This document shows, piece by piece, positions 46,311-54,596 of a stretch of DNA of 61,322 nucleotides. Made by a program: the position numbers and the translations under genes. Position 1 is the stretch's first letter. Every line of letters begins with the position of its first letter. This stretch comes from a bacterium (GTDB lineage: Bacteria > Sysuimicrobiota > Sysuimicrobiia > Sysuimicrobiales > Segetimicrobiaceae): positions 1 through 61,322 of the forward strand of contig DATGJN010000094.1 of the NCBI GenBank assembly GCA_035295165.1. The letters are read 5' to 3'. A model generated the notes under the pieces. The model was given only the letters and a program-made list of their open reading frames with translations, did not search any database and had not been told where the DNA came from.

Positions 46311-48113
46311 TTACTTGAACGTCGTGCCGGCGTCCATCAGCAGGTGTTCCACGAGTGGACCCAGAGCCAATGCGGGCAGGAAGCTCAGCGTGCCGACGAT
46401 GATGAGCACCGCGGCGAGCCAGAGGACGAACTGCCACGTGTGCGTCGGGAGCGTGCCCGCGCTGGCAGGCCACTGTCGCTTCCCGACCAACGATCCGGCG
46501 ATCGCCAGTGCCGGGATCGCCACCCAGAATCGCCCAGCCAGCATGACCGCGGCGCCGACGATGTTGTAGAACGGCGTGTTCCCGTTCAGCCCGGCGAACG
46601 CGCTCCCGTTGTTGTTGGACATGGACGTGAACGCCTACAAGATCTCGCTGAATCCGTGCGGCCCCGGGTTGGACACGCGAGCGCGGCCCGCCGCGGTCAA
46701 CACGGCGACCGCGGTGGCGGTCAGGGCCACCGCGGGCATGATGAGGACGACCAGGGTCGCCATCCTAATCTCGAACGCCTCGATTTTCTTGCCGAGGTAC
46801 TCGGGGCTGCGGCCGATCATGAGGCCGGCCGCAAACGCCGCGACGAGCACGTACACGAGCATTCCGTAGAGCCCGGACCCGATGCCGCCGTAGATGACCT
46901 CGCCAGTGTGCATCAGGAACAGCGGGACGACCCCTCCGGCCGGTGTGTAGGAGTCGTAGTTCGAGTTCGCCGAGCCGTTTGACGCCGCGGTCGTGAGCGT
47001 TGTCCACAGCGCCGAGGCGGCAATCCCGAAGCGCACCTCCTTGCCCTCCATGTTGCCGCCTGGTTGCGCCGCCGTTGCCCGCTGGTCGACGCCGGCCGGG
47101 GTCAACAGCGGGTTACCCGCCTGCTCGGCGCTCACGGCCCCCACGAGCAGCGGCACGAAGATGAGTGACATCGCGGCGAGCAGCGCCCAGCCCTGTTTCG
47201 TGTTGCCGACCATCCGGCCGAACGTGTAACACGACGCGATAGGGATCAGGGCCATCGCGATCGTCTCAAAGAAGTTGGACAGCGGCGTCGGATTCTCGAA
47301 CGGGTGGGCCGAGTTTGCGTTGGTGAAGCCGCCGCCGTTCGTGAACTGCCTGATCGCGACGTCCGACGCCACGGGGCCCAGCGCGATCTGCTGCTCGGTC
47401 ACCTTCACCGTGGTGGTCTTCCGGTGCCCTTGGGCGTCCAGCACCGGCTTCCCGTTCGCGTCGGTGACCGGCTGCGCGTACGCGGTCGACTCCATCAACG
47501 TCGCCGTCTGGTACGGCGAGAGCGTCTGGACGACGCCCTGGGACACGAGGAAGAGGGCGAACACCGCGGCGAGCGGCAGGAAGACGTACAGCGTCCCGCG
47601 GACGAGATCCACCCAGAAGTTCCCGATCGTCCGACCCGACGCGCGCGCGAGCCCGCGGAACAGCGCGACCATGATCGCCATCCCGGCGCCGGAGACGAAC
47701 GCCTTCGGGACGAACCCCGCCATCTGCGTCAGGTAGCTCATCGCCGACTCGCCCCCAAAGTTCTGCCACTCCGTGGCGCTGACGTAGGAGGCGGCGGTGT
47801 TGAAGGCGAGCACGGGGTCGATCGAGAGGAACCGCTGGGGGTTGAGAGGCAGCGCGGCCTGCAACCGCAGCATCGCGTACAGGAGGATCATGCCGACGAG
47901 GGTGAAGGCGAGGAGCGCCGTGGTGTACGTCTGCCAGTCCATCTCCTGCTCCGGCCGTACGCCCGCCCACCGGTACAAGAGGCGTTCCACCGGCCGCAGG
48001 ACCGGGTCGAGCCACGTTCGCTCACCTTCGTACACGCGAGCGATGTGGGCCCCGAGGGGTTTGGCCGACAATAACAGCACGGCCAGCACGACGGCGATCT
48101 GGAGCCAGCCCAT
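46311..48113 (-). pseudogene. kdpA: Second kdpA copy interrupted by one amber codon
   Basis: Frame of 601 codons encoding a K+-transporting ATPase A-chain. It is intact except for TAG at 46635-46637, where the functional copy at 49268 has a tyrosine codon ([12 protein letters not shown]). Upstream 492 codons and downstream 104 codons remain in the same frame. Selectivity-filter segments are partly altered: TNGGGFTNANSAHP lacks one residue of [16 protein letters not shown]. No kdpB or kdpC follows. It is preceded by a small hydrophobic ORF and by its own copy of the shared regulatory element. Nonsense mutation is the simplest reading; assembly error or readthrough is possible. Confidence 0.88.
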
Positions 48114-48206
48114 CGTAGTCAACTGCACCACGGCAACTCGAAGAAAGGTGCGCGGGAGGTGTGAACAGCGCTCACTGCGTGGCGGATTGCACGGCGCCGG
48201 CGGCGC

Positions 48207-48484: not shown

Positions 48485-48563
48485 AATGTATTGCTTCCCA
48501 CCGCTACGAAGCCATTACGATTCTCTCCGCGGGGCCCGCCGCCGAATGTAATCGGTCGTTAAT
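48485..48563 (-). promoter_or_regulatory. Element C: activator-type promoter of the kdpA pseudogene locus
   Basis: Minus strand: ATTAAC-N5-ATTACA direct repeat (48563 down to 48547), then GTAATGGCTTCGTAGCGG (48518-48501) and TACATT as -10 (48490-48485). GTAAT-to-GTAGC period is 11 bp; GTAATG-to--10 distance is 28 bp. No -35 is seen, consistent with an OmpR/PhoB-family activator such as KdpE. Confidence 0.6.
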
Positions 48564-48613
48564 GGCAGCGCTACCCGCCGTAATGCCCCCGTAACGGCGG
48601 TTGGTGGTATGGT
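48548..48613 (+). promoter_or_regulatory. Element A: activator-type promoter for the central ORF
   Basis: Plus strand: GTAAT-N6-TTAAT (48548-48563, 11-bp period), then GTAATGCCCCCGTAACGG (48580-48597), and TATGGT as -10 (48608-48613), 28 bp from GTAATG. It shares the 48548-48565 site with element C, giving a divergent control region. Confidence 0.6.
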
Positions 48614-48642
48614 GCATGCGGTATCGCGGACGGGGCGGGTCG

Positions 48643-48939
48643 GTGAAAGACGTTGACCGAGATGATGAGATGAGCGCAGGTGGCGCGACGGCCGTGTCCA
48701 GAGTGTCCCGGTGCACGGGCGGCCTGCGGAACTGGCTAGCGGAGCTGTGGGAGACGATCCTCCTGGGATGCGTCATCGCGGACACGAGCGCGCTCGATTC
48801 GTGCGCGACGTGCGAGTCCGCGCGCCCCTACGTCGAGGAGATGCTGCGGATCCGCACGCTGCGCCGCCCCGCGCCCCGTCCCAGGTGGTGCCCTGGGCAC
48901 CCGGACCGCCGCCACGGCGCAGGATTAACAAAACATTAA
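48643..48939 (+). CDS. Unrecognised 98-residue ORF under a kdp-type promoter
   Basis: GTG 48643 (or ATG 48670) to 48939. I recognise no family. The middle has a hydrophobic ETILLGCVIAD and a Cys pair DSCATCESAR; the C-terminus is Arg/Pro-rich with WCPGHPDRRHG. Its support is the upstream element A and its position between the two kdp loci. SD is weak. It may be a real stress gene or an accidental frame. Confidence 0.35.
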   Translation: MKDVDRDDEMSAGGATAVSRVSRCTGGLRNWLAELWETILLGCVIADTSALDSCATCESARPYVEEMLRIRTLRRPAPRPRWCPGHPDRRHGAGLTKH

Positions 48940-48989
48940 TCCCATCCGCCCCCAAGGTAATGGCTCCGTAACGCGGTTCGTGATATCGT
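48924..48989 (+). promoter_or_regulatory. Element B: activator-type promoter of the intact kdp operon
   Basis: ATTAAC (48924-48929) and ATTAAT (48935-48940) with an 11-bp period; GTAATGGCTCCGTAACGCGG at 48957-48976 repeats at 11 bp; the two pairs start 33 bp apart. TATCGT (48984-48989) is the likely -10, 27 bp from GTAATG. GGATTAA-N7-TTAATCC is also a perfect inverted repeat. A KdpE-type site is inferred. An approximately 100-base leader to the first ORF follows. Confidence 0.65.
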
Positions 48990-49090: not shown

Positions 49091-49183
49091 GTGGCGGACG
49101 TGGAGCTCATCGCGCTCGCGTTGCTGTTCGTCTTCTCGTGCGTGTGGATGGTCGAGGGCCTCGATCGGCTCATGGGACGGTGA
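49091..49183 (+). CDS. 30-residue membrane peptide at the head of the kdp operon
   Basis: Too short for normal gene calling. GTG 49091 after GGGGAGGGG encodes a single transmembrane helix starting MADVELIALALLFVF and ending EGLDRLMGR. Small helices of this kind (ending in a DRL-type motif) often precede kdpF in bacterial kdp operons; their role is unknown. Four bases separate its stop from the kdpF start. Confidence 0.7.
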   Translation: MADVELIALALLFVFSCVWMVEGLDRLMGR

Positions 49184-49187
49184 TGAC

Positions 49188-49271
49188 ATGGTCGTGATTG
49201 CAGGCGTGCTGTCGATCGCCCTGCTGGGATATCTGATCTGCGCGCTGCTGAAGCCGGAGTGGTTTGTATGA
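49188..49271 (+). CDS. kdpF: K+-transporting ATPase subunit KdpF
   Basis: 27 residues, one helix, beginning MVVIAGVLSIALLGYLICA and ending KPEWFV. KdpF stabilises the KdpFABC complex. The stop overlaps the kdpA ATG (ATGA). Confidence 0.88.
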   Translation: MVVIAGVLSIALLGYLICALLKPEWFV

Positions 49272-51085
49272 CGAGCGTCGGAATCGCCCGCATTCTCCTC
49301 GTCCTCGTCGTCGTCTTCCTGCTCGTCAAACCCCTCGGCACCTACATGGCAAAGGTCTACGAGGGCGAGCGAACCATCTTCGACCGCTTCCTGCAGCCGT
49401 TCGAGCGGTGGCTGTACCGGATCTGCGCCATCGATCCGGAGGCCGACATGCCGTGGCAGACGTACACGATCGCCCTGCTTGCGTTCACCATCGTCGGGAT
49501 GCTGCTGCTCTACGCGCTGCAGCGGCTGCAGGGCGTGCTGCCGTTGAACCCGCAGGGCATCGGCGCGGTCGATCCGAGTCTGGCGTTCAACACGGCCACG
49601 TCGTTCGCGACGAACACGAACTGGCAGAACTACGGCGGGGAGAGCACGCTGAGCGACCTGAGTCAGATGGCCGGGCTGACGGTGAAAAACTTCACGTCGG
49701 CCGCCGTGGGGATGGCGGTGCTCGTGGCGCTGATCCGCGGGCTGACGCGCCGCTCGGCCAAGGCGATCGGCAACTTCTGGGTCGACACGGTGCGCGGCGT
49801 CCTGTACATTTTGATGCCGCTCGCCATCGTCCTGGCGCTGCTGCTCGCGTGGCAGGGTCTCCCGCAGACGCTGTCGCCGTACAAGACGGCGACCTTGATG
49901 GAACCGACCTCGTACGAGCAGCCGATCACGGACGCCAGCGGCAAGCCCGTGCTCGACGCCAAGGGCCAGCCGAAGACCAAGACCATCAAGGTGACGGAGC
50001 AGCAGATCGCCATCGGGCCCGTGGCGTCGCAGCTGGCGATCAAGGAGCTCGGCACGAACGGAGGCGGGTTCTTCAACGCGAACTCGGCTCATCCATACGA
50101 GAACCCGACGCCGTTCTCGAACTTCCTGGAGCTGCTCGCGATCCTGCTGATTCCCGCGGCGATCGTCTATACGTACGGCCGGATGGTGAAGGACACGCGC
50201 CAGGGCTGGGCACTGCTTGCGGCGATGACGATCTGCTTCCTCCCGGCGATCGGCGTGGCCGTCGGGTTCGAGCAGGCCGGCAATCCACTGTTCCATTCGC
50301 TCGGCGTCGATCAGGCCGCGAGCCCGCTGCAGCCGGGCGGGAACATGGAGGGCAAGGAGGTTCGCTTCGGTCCGGTCGATTCCGCGTTGTGGGCCGTCTC
50401 AACGACCTCCACGTCGAACGGGTCGGTCAACTCGATGCACGATTCGTACACGCCGATCGCCGGCATGGTGCCGATGGTGATGATGCACCTCGGCGAGATC
50501 ATCTACGGCGGCGTGGGCACCGGAATGTACGACATGGTGGCGCTCGTGATCGTCGCGGCGTTCGTGGCCGGCCTCATGGTGGGCCGCACGCCGGAGTACC
50601 TCGGCAAGAAGATCGAGGCGTTCGAGATGAAAATGGCGACGATCGTCGTCCTGGTGATGCCGGCGGTCGTGCTCGTCGGAACGGCGCTTGGGGTGGCGAC
50701 CGCGGCCGGCAAGGCCGGCGTATCGAACCCGGGCCCGCACGGGTTCAGCGAGATTCTCTACGCGTTTACGTCGATGGGCAACAACAACGGCAGCGCGTTC
50801 GCGGGGTTGAACGGCAACACCCCGTTCTACAACGACGTCGGCGCGGTCGTGATGTGGCTGGGGCGGTTCTGGGAGATTGTCCCGGTGCTCGCGATCGCGG
50901 GATCCCTGGCCGCGAAGAAAGTCGTGCCCCCGGGCGCGGGGACACTGCCCACCTACACGGTGCAGTTTGTGCTGTGGCTGGTGGCCGTGATCATCATCCT
51001 GGGGGCGTTGAGCTTCCTGCCTGTGTTGGCGCTCGGCCCGATCGTCGAGCACCTGCTGCTCACCGCCGGCACCACCTTTAAGTGA
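49268..51085 (+). CDS. kdpA: Potassium-transporting ATPase subunit A
   Basis: 605 residues, the K+-selective channel-like subunit of the KdpFABC pump. Selectivity-filter loops are intact, including [23 protein letters not shown] and [12 protein letters not shown]. The N-terminal [33 protein letters not shown] is standard. ATG 49268 overlaps the kdpF stop. kdpB follows after 13 bp. It is the functional partner of the broken copy at 46311. Confidence 0.97.
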
Positions 51086-51098
51086 GGAGACTGAGAGC

Positions 51099-53192
<2,094 letters not shown>

Positions 53193-53272: not shown

Positions 53273-53845
53273 ATGCGTGCACAACTGCTTCCCGCAGTCA
53301 TGCTGACCCTGATGCTCACGATCCTGACGGGGTTGTGCTACCCGCTCGCGATCACCGGGATCGCGCAGATCCTGTTCCCGCACCAGGCGAACGGGAGCCT
53401 GATCCTCGACAACGGCAAGGTCGTCGGGTCTGAGCTGATCGGCCAGCCGTTTACCGACCCGAGCCACTTCTGGAGCCGGCCGTCGGCGACGTCCCCGCAG
53501 GCGTACAACGCGGCGTCGTCCGGAGGCTCGAATCTCGGGCCGACGAACCAGGCGCTGATCGACCAGGTCAAGCAGAATGTGGCGGCGCTTCGCCAGGCGG
53601 ATCCGGGCAACACCGCGCCCGTGCCGGTGGACCTCGTCACGAACTCCGCGAGCGGACTCGATCCCGACATCAGCGTCGCGGCAGCCCTCTACCAGGTGCC
53701 GCGCGTGGCTCGGGTCCACAAACTGCCCGTGGAGACGGTGCGCGCACTCGTGGTCAAGTACACCGAGGGACGGCAGTTCGGCATTCTCGGCGAACCGCGG
53801 GTGAACGTGCTCGAACTGAACCGGGCGCTCGACCAGGCGAAGTAA
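53273..53845 (+). CDS. kdpC: Potassium-transporting ATPase subunit C
   Basis: 190 residues, one N-terminal transmembrane helix ([21 protein letters not shown]) and the KdpC periplasmic domain with [19 protein letters not shown] and [12 protein letters not shown]. It supports ATP binding and complex assembly. ATG 53273 after AAGGAG. Confidence 0.96.
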
Positions 53846-53900: not shown

Positions 53901-54596
53901 ATGGAGGGAGCCGTCGGGCCGCGCGTGCTCGTTGTCGACGACGAGGAAGCGCTTCGCCGGCTGCTCCGCGCCACCCTCGCGGCGCGCGGCTACCGGGTGT
54001 TTGAGGCCTCGTCCGGCCAGGGGGCGTTGGTCACCGCCGGCGCGGTGCACTCGGATCTCGTCATCCTGGACCTCGGGCTCCCCGACCTGGACGGCCTCGA
54101 CGTGATCCGGCGCCTGCGCGAGTGGTCCAGCACGCCGATCGTGGTCCTCTCGGTCCGCGATCGGGACGACGACAAAGTCGCCGCACTGGACGCCGGGGCG
54201 GACGACTACCTCACCAAGCCGTTCAGCACGCTCGAGCTCCTCGCGCGGATGCGGGCCGCGCTGCGGCACGCAGCCCGGTCGGGGAACGAGGCGGTGATCG
54301 CGACCGGCGCCCTGACCGTCGATGTCGTGCGCCGCCGGGTCACGGTGGCGGGCCGGCAGGTCGCGCTCACCCCGGTAGGATACTCGTTGCTGAAAGCCCT
54401 CGCGCTCTCGGCGGGCAAGGTGCGCGTGCACCGGCATCTGCTCCGCGAGGTCTGGGGCCCCGCGTACGAGCACGATCTCAGTCTCCTCCGCGTCAGCGTC
54501 AGCAAACTGCGCCACAAGGTCGAGTCGGACCCCGCTCGGCCCCAGTACATCCTTACCGAAGCCGGCGTCGGGTACCGGCTGCGAGTCCCCGCGTAA
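53901..54596 (+). CDS. kdpE: OmpR-family response regulator KdpE
   Basis: 231 residues. Receiver domain with VLVVDDEEALRR, phospho-acceptor Asp in LVILDLGLPDLDG, and Lys in DDYLTKPF. C-terminal winged HTH ends in RVSVSKLRHKVESDPARPQYILTEAGVGYRLRV as in KdpE. It likely activates the three GTAAT-repeat promoters. KdpD, its usual sensor kinase, is absent from this locus. ATG 53901, 55 bp after kdpC. Confidence 0.92.
   Translation: MEGAVGPRVLVVDDEEALRRLLRATLAARGYRVFEASSGQGALVTAGAVHSDLVILDLGLPDLDGLDVIRRLREWSSTPIVVLSVRDRDDDKVAALDAGADDYLTKPFSTLELLARMRAALRHAARSGNEAVIATGALTVDVVRRRVTVAGRQVALTPVGYSLLKALALSAGKVRVHRHLLREVWGPAYEHDLSLLRVSVSKLRHKVESDPARPQYILTEAGVGYRLRVPA

Follow-up and report, generated by a model that had tools for sequence, protein, structure and literature searches.

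Candidate KdpE-dependent promoters with paired 11-bp direct repeats in the kdp region of a Segetimicrobiaceae genome, in the register of the Escherichia coli kdp promoter

In promoter activation, PhoB replaces the -35 element. PHO boxes, like the sites considered below, are 11-bp direct repeats (PMC4415409). For E. coli KdpE, the half-sites TTTATA-N5-TTTACA have been located at -72 to -50, and residues R193, R200 and T215 were found to be important (PMC3264566). A 22-bp KdpE site from Mycobacterium smegmatis (CCGTAAAGAAACCATCAAGGCC) was reported to be unlike other KdpE sites, and the kdp promoter of this organism to be SigF-dependent, with -35 and -10 boxes (PMC5401905).

The window, which is the whole 61,322-nucleotide stretch of DNA that was analysed, contains three related elements in its kdp region. 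They are referred to here as A, B and C, with the half-sites of the proximal pair designated P1 and P2 and those of the distal pair S1 and S2.

48485..48518, minus strand: promoter-like element A, with P1 GTAATG 48518-48513, P2 GTAGCG 48507-48502 and -10 TACATT 48490-48485
48548..48613, plus strand: promoter B, with S1 GTAATC 48548-48553, S2 TTAATG 48559-48564, P1 GTAATG 48580-48585 and P2 GTAACG 48591-48596; core with TG 48605-48606 and -10 TATGGT 48608-48613, the -10 at offset 60
48925..48989, plus strand: promoter C (kdpFABC), with S1 TTAACA 48925-48930, S2 TTAATC 48936-48941, P1 GTAATG 48957-48962 and P2 GTAACG 48968-48973; core with TG 48981-48982 and -10 TATCGT 48984-48989, offsets 0/11/32/43/59

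A preliminary description of this DNA had reported GTAATG-N5-GTA(A/G)CG at each element, with an 11-bp period and 27-28 bp before a -10. The positions were verified: the period of the proximal half-sites is exact at A, B and C, and the distance from P1 to the -10 is 28 bp at A and B and 27 bp at C. None of the three has a -35 box, as had been stated, and C shows no hexamer resembling a -35 at the usual spacing. The same architecture had been ascribed to all three promoters, with further 11-bp repeats upstream. This holds for the proximal pair throughout and for the upstream repeats at B and C, where, in addition to what had been described, the gap from S1 to P1 is constant at 32 bp and an extended -10 (TGn) is present, but not for A, which has neither a distal pair in register nor an extended -10 and retains the proximal pair only. 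The four-half-site register (0, 11, 32, 43; -10 at 59) is exact at C and within 1 bp at B, the distal pair falling at approximately -71 to -55. Direct 6-bp half-sites 11 bp apart with the core TTnA are seen in the distal pair of C; at B, S2 fits this core and S1 is GTAATC, while the proximal pairs of all three elements carry GTAA. Both B and C precede kdpF/A and share its orientation; A, on the minus strand, precedes kdpA2.

The genes and open reading frames (ORFs) around the elements are as follows.

46311..48131, minus strand: kdpA2, a second KdpA, 66% to kdpA1, downstream of A
48643..48939, plus strand: 98-aa ORF after promoter B, with no Pfam match
49091..49183, plus strand: small ORF of 30 aa (VADVELIALALLFVFSCVWMVEGLDRLMGR) between promoter C and kdpF
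49188..49271, plus strand: kdpF, 27 aa, 63-89% identical within the family
49259..51085, plus strand: kdpA1, PF03814 with E 1.4e-243
51099..53192, plus strand: kdpB, E1-E2 ATPase, HAD; 84-91% in relatives
53273..53845, plus strand: kdpC, PF02669 with E 1.8e-78
53901..54596, plus strand: kdpE paralog (KdpE2) on a long branch, retaining the phospho-acceptor and DNA-contact residues; no adjoining kdpD

Promoter C is thus followed by the 30-aa ORF, kdpF, kdpA1, kdpB, kdpC and kdpE2, with kdpA1 probably starting at ATG 49268. We note that the 30-aa product is hydrophobic and ends in RLMGR, and that similar ORFs precede kdpF in six relatives. A homology search with the 98-aa ORF gave no relatives beyond chance; it was dropped for this reason as the target of B and is possibly not a gene. 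The kdpA2 frame is interrupted by one in-frame TAG at 46637-46635, near residue 499, and no kdpB was found beside it. In the KdpA tree KdpA2 branches as the sister group of all KdpA sequences of the family, and the interruption could reflect either recent pseudogene formation or an error in the assembly. The kdpD gene lies outside the window, on contig C113, where it adjoins another kdpE.

With no mismatches allowed, GTAATG-N5-GTARCG has three matches in the 4.79 Mb genome, all within the 0.5 kb kdp region, compared with one match for the reversed pattern as control; the claim of a lineage motif tied to kdp is upheld. No promoter of the A, B or C type was found at the canonical kdpED on C113. 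Among 11 family genomes there is one extra exact match (G007:C11:219), which was discarded as kdpA was not found in that genome. When two mismatches are allowed the scan returns noise, with 206 matches against 340 for the reversed-pattern control, such that only the near-exact motif is informative. A pattern joining P2 to the -10, GTAACG-N10/11-TAYSGT, was also set aside: it has few non-kdp matches, and its frequency is not above control. Model R1, built from the family's promoter sequences with B and C included, gives significant matches only at kdp across 12 family genomes; the genomes among these that do not have kdp gave none. Against this model A scores 9.3 bits (E 0.2).

The kdp genes are present in six family genomes. 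The preliminary description had made its interpretation depend on the repeats being conserved upstream of kdp in relatives, and they are: the same promoter stands upstream of kdpFABC in four relatives (G001, G002, G003 and G004; genera g1 and g2), and a diverged form in two more (G010 and G011; g4). In the first four the proximal half-sites are GTAACG, GTGACC or TTAGCG, the distal ones are of the TTAAC- or TTCAC-type and the -10 is TGnTAYSGT. In the g4 genomes the half-sites are TTGAGG/TTGATG. The KdpE of G010 (L059) has a glutamine where that of E. coli has R193 (LLQV versus LLRV), and a co-change of regulator and site is possible in G010 and G011 (L059, L061). In the model R1 scan each relative with kdp has only one such promoter. 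When a matrix built from G001-G004, with the window's own genome held out, was scanned over the 61-kb window, C ranked first (32.5) and B second (20.5), with the best background at 4.6; in a proximal-only scan A ranks third. A further matrix was constructed from 50 promoters of phyla other than that of the window. In E. coli, as in each of the six relatives, its top match is correctly oriented and lies upstream of kdpF. In the window it places C third, with a score of 6.6 that is within the random-control range (maximum 10.4), which indicates that the half-site of this lineage has drifted.

Comparison across phyla indicates that the layout extends well beyond the family. We assembled 76 kdp loci from many phyla, chosen by similarity to the window's KdpA, and 55 of the upstream regions contain TTnA[C/T] pairs with a spacing of exactly 11 bp, against 2.8 expected from shuffling; Burkholderiales are over-represented in the set and the counts ignore kinship. 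The pairs are restricted to the operon strand, and the columns flanking the aligned half-sites are almost unconserved. When the regions are anchored on the 11-bp pair, conservation outside the anchor appears as T at 32, TTnA at 43 and TAnnnT at 59. Counted from the second half-site, TTnA occurs at +32 in 40 of 54 loci and TAnnnT at +48 in 30 of 54, the maxima in 200 shuffles being 5 and 4, respectively. In 17 loci TAnnnT is found at +16, such that the anchored pair is itself proximal. The two spacings, +48 and +16, show that both two-pair promoters and promoters with a single proximal pair exist. A -35 element is generally absent (30 of 36 have four or five mismatches to TTGACA), and the extended -10 is rare outside the window's family (two of 36). 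Read from sequence, the common rule across kdp promoters is a putative operator pair that ends 10 bp before the -10.

The four-half-site register also fits the E. coli kdp promoter, which has TTTATA, TTTACA, TTTGCG, TTTGCA and TACCCT at 0, 11, 32, 43 and 59. This match identifies the motif singled out in the preliminary description as the proximal pair, and its 'further repeats' as the element equivalent to the E. coli site; the proximal half-sites of E. coli (TTTGCG, TTTGCA) are degenerate. Among a few further kdp loci, all carried on plasmids and compiled as a separate set, the layout is present in Moraxella, where the -10-like TAATAA deviates at its last base, Duffyella and Caballeronia, and is partial in Roseomonas and Rhizobium; TTnA pairs are lacking in most of the alphaproteobacterial loci examined in this set. 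The strict 11-bp TTnA pair is also absent from 22 of the 76 loci. A universal rule was dropped in view of the alphaproteobacterial loci, and together with the 22 loci they show that the architecture is not universal.

In our view, B and C are most probably KdpE-dependent promoters and A a reduced one, a reading to which we assign a probability of roughly 0.8. The proposal that the activator belongs to the OmpR/PhoB family and is of the KdpE type is supported by a kdp-linked register that takes in the E. coli KdpE site. We infer KdpE binding and activation, and the identity of the acting copy, from these sequence comparisons. Under K+ limitation, the KdpD encoded on C113 would phosphorylate KdpE, a dimer of which could then bind head-to-tail on P1/P2, at approximately -39 to -23. 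This proximal dimer would stand in for the absent -35 and recruit sigma in a PhoB-like manner. A further dimer may occupy S1/S2 of B and C, at approximately -71 to -55, and would lie on the same helix face as the first; with half-sites spaced by 11, 21 and 11 bp, all four would fall near one face. The predicted half-site in this GC-rich family is KTAAYG instead of TTTAYA, and the extended -10 (TGn) may compensate for a poor -10. Promoter C would drive kdpF-A-B-C and probably kdpE2. Promoter B may provide a second start for the kdpFABC operon or the start of a short transcript, and A would be directed at kdpA2, the reading frame of which is broken.

Which regulator acts here deserves some care. 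An 11-bp direct repeat that ends 10-11 bp before the -10 is generic for the OmpR/PhoB family, PHO boxes being a further case (PMC4415409), and the genome encodes at least eight regulators of this type, any of which, for example one that is PhoB- or RegX3-like, might bind the repeats and control kdp in this lineage. We regard this as very improbable, since the architecture tracks kdp operons across phyla and includes an experimentally defined E. coli KdpE site, whereas the motif is absent elsewhere in the genome and a regulator of the PhoB type should have sites at several operons. If the regulator is KdpE, two copies come into question. The preliminary description favoured the one encoded at 53901, which contains REC and Trans_reg_C domains and whose nearest solved relative is KdpE (1e-63), with PhoB less close. 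It lies 55 bp after kdpC on the same strand, and would be co-transcribed with kdpFABC, and it retains the key phosphorylation and DNA-contact residues; the counterparts of E. coli R193, R200 and the wing T are conserved in both copies. That this copy is the main activator is nevertheless doubtful and, we consider, unlikely. It is a divergent paralog on a long branch (0.43 versus 0.08) with no adjoining kdpD, and the C113 copy beside kdpD is the ortholog (81%) of the single kdpD-linked KdpE of the relative G004. The C113 KdpE is favoured as the likelier activator, since its ortholog is the only KdpE of the relatives that share these promoters, and the window copy may add to it or modulate it. 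The two paralogs also differ in tempo, with the one at 53901-54596 in the kdp operon evolving fast and the one with kdpD (L054, 2927-3634, minus strand) conserved.

It is also possible, although we would not choose this reading over that of two KdpE-dependent promoters, that C is the only functional promoter, with A and B being copies that are duplicated or in decay and yield no product. Element A faces a kdpA2 with an in-frame stop and has no distal pair, the ORF after B has neither relatives nor a Pfam match, and relatives have a single promoter each. Against this, B retains four half-sites, the extended -10 and a -10, and its score in the relatives-only scan is far above background (20.5 versus 4.6); A retains a near-perfect proximal pair, and the stop in kdpA2 could be an assembly error.

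Both a KdpE-DNA crystal structure and the studies of the half-sites are based on the distal site of E. coli, and it is not obvious how KdpE would contact RNA polymerase from approximately -60. A conserved proximal pair over the -35, at a fixed spacing from the -10, would offer a simple, PhoB-like answer; no description of such a pair was found in the largely open-access literature that was searched. We lean, by a narrow balance, towards the view that kdp activation in many phyla proceeds from a KdpE dimer bound at a proximal site in place of the -35 (P2 start to -10 being 16 bp), and that this dimer is often joined by another 32 bp farther upstream. On this view, what textbooks give as the E. 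coli site would be only the distal half of an ancestral four-half-site promoter, of which the window lineage keeps the strongest proximal half. For GC-rich and uncultured lineages, the layout also supplies a rule by which kdp regulation can be searched for.

The likeness to PhoB promoters is one of layout: in both, tandem 11-bp repeats replace the -35 approximately 10 bp before the -10. The PhoB half-site is CTGTCAT and serves a separate regulon of many operons, whereas the window motif is confined to kdp; its half-site differs from the TGTCA type and does not recur at several phosphate operons as PHO boxes do. The M. smegmatis site, read as its reverse complement and compared irrespective of strand relative to kdpF, is TTGATG-N5-TTTACG, which is the same 11-bp pair and resembles the TTGAGG/TTGATG-type pairs of G010 and G011. 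We note a close resemblance between this reverse complement (CTTGATGGTTTCTTTACGG) and the distal pair of G011 (L061; CTTGATGGGTTCTTGATGG). These comparisons suggest a single motif family for KdpE sites that have been reported as dissimilar, namely the T-rich site of E. coli and the A-rich site of Mycobacterium. The view that the window site is unlike the T-rich E. coli one does not stand. The E. coli kdpFABC-BS (PMC3264566) and S1/S2 of B and C are both 6-N5-6 direct repeats of 11-bp period, in the same orientation and at the same distance from the -10, the E. coli site corresponding to the distal pair, and its TTnA core is retained in S1 and S2 of C. The half-sites themselves differ, being TTAAC/TTAAT or GTAAYG in the window and TTTAYA in E. 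coli. In the window the strong, genome-unique pair is the proximal one, over the -35, whereas that of E. coli is degenerate, and B and C have an extended -10, unlike E. coli kdpFABC. Judged by these likenesses, the putative KdpE motif of the window is a lineage variant of the known KdpE sites, to which the four-half-site register and the proximal site are added.
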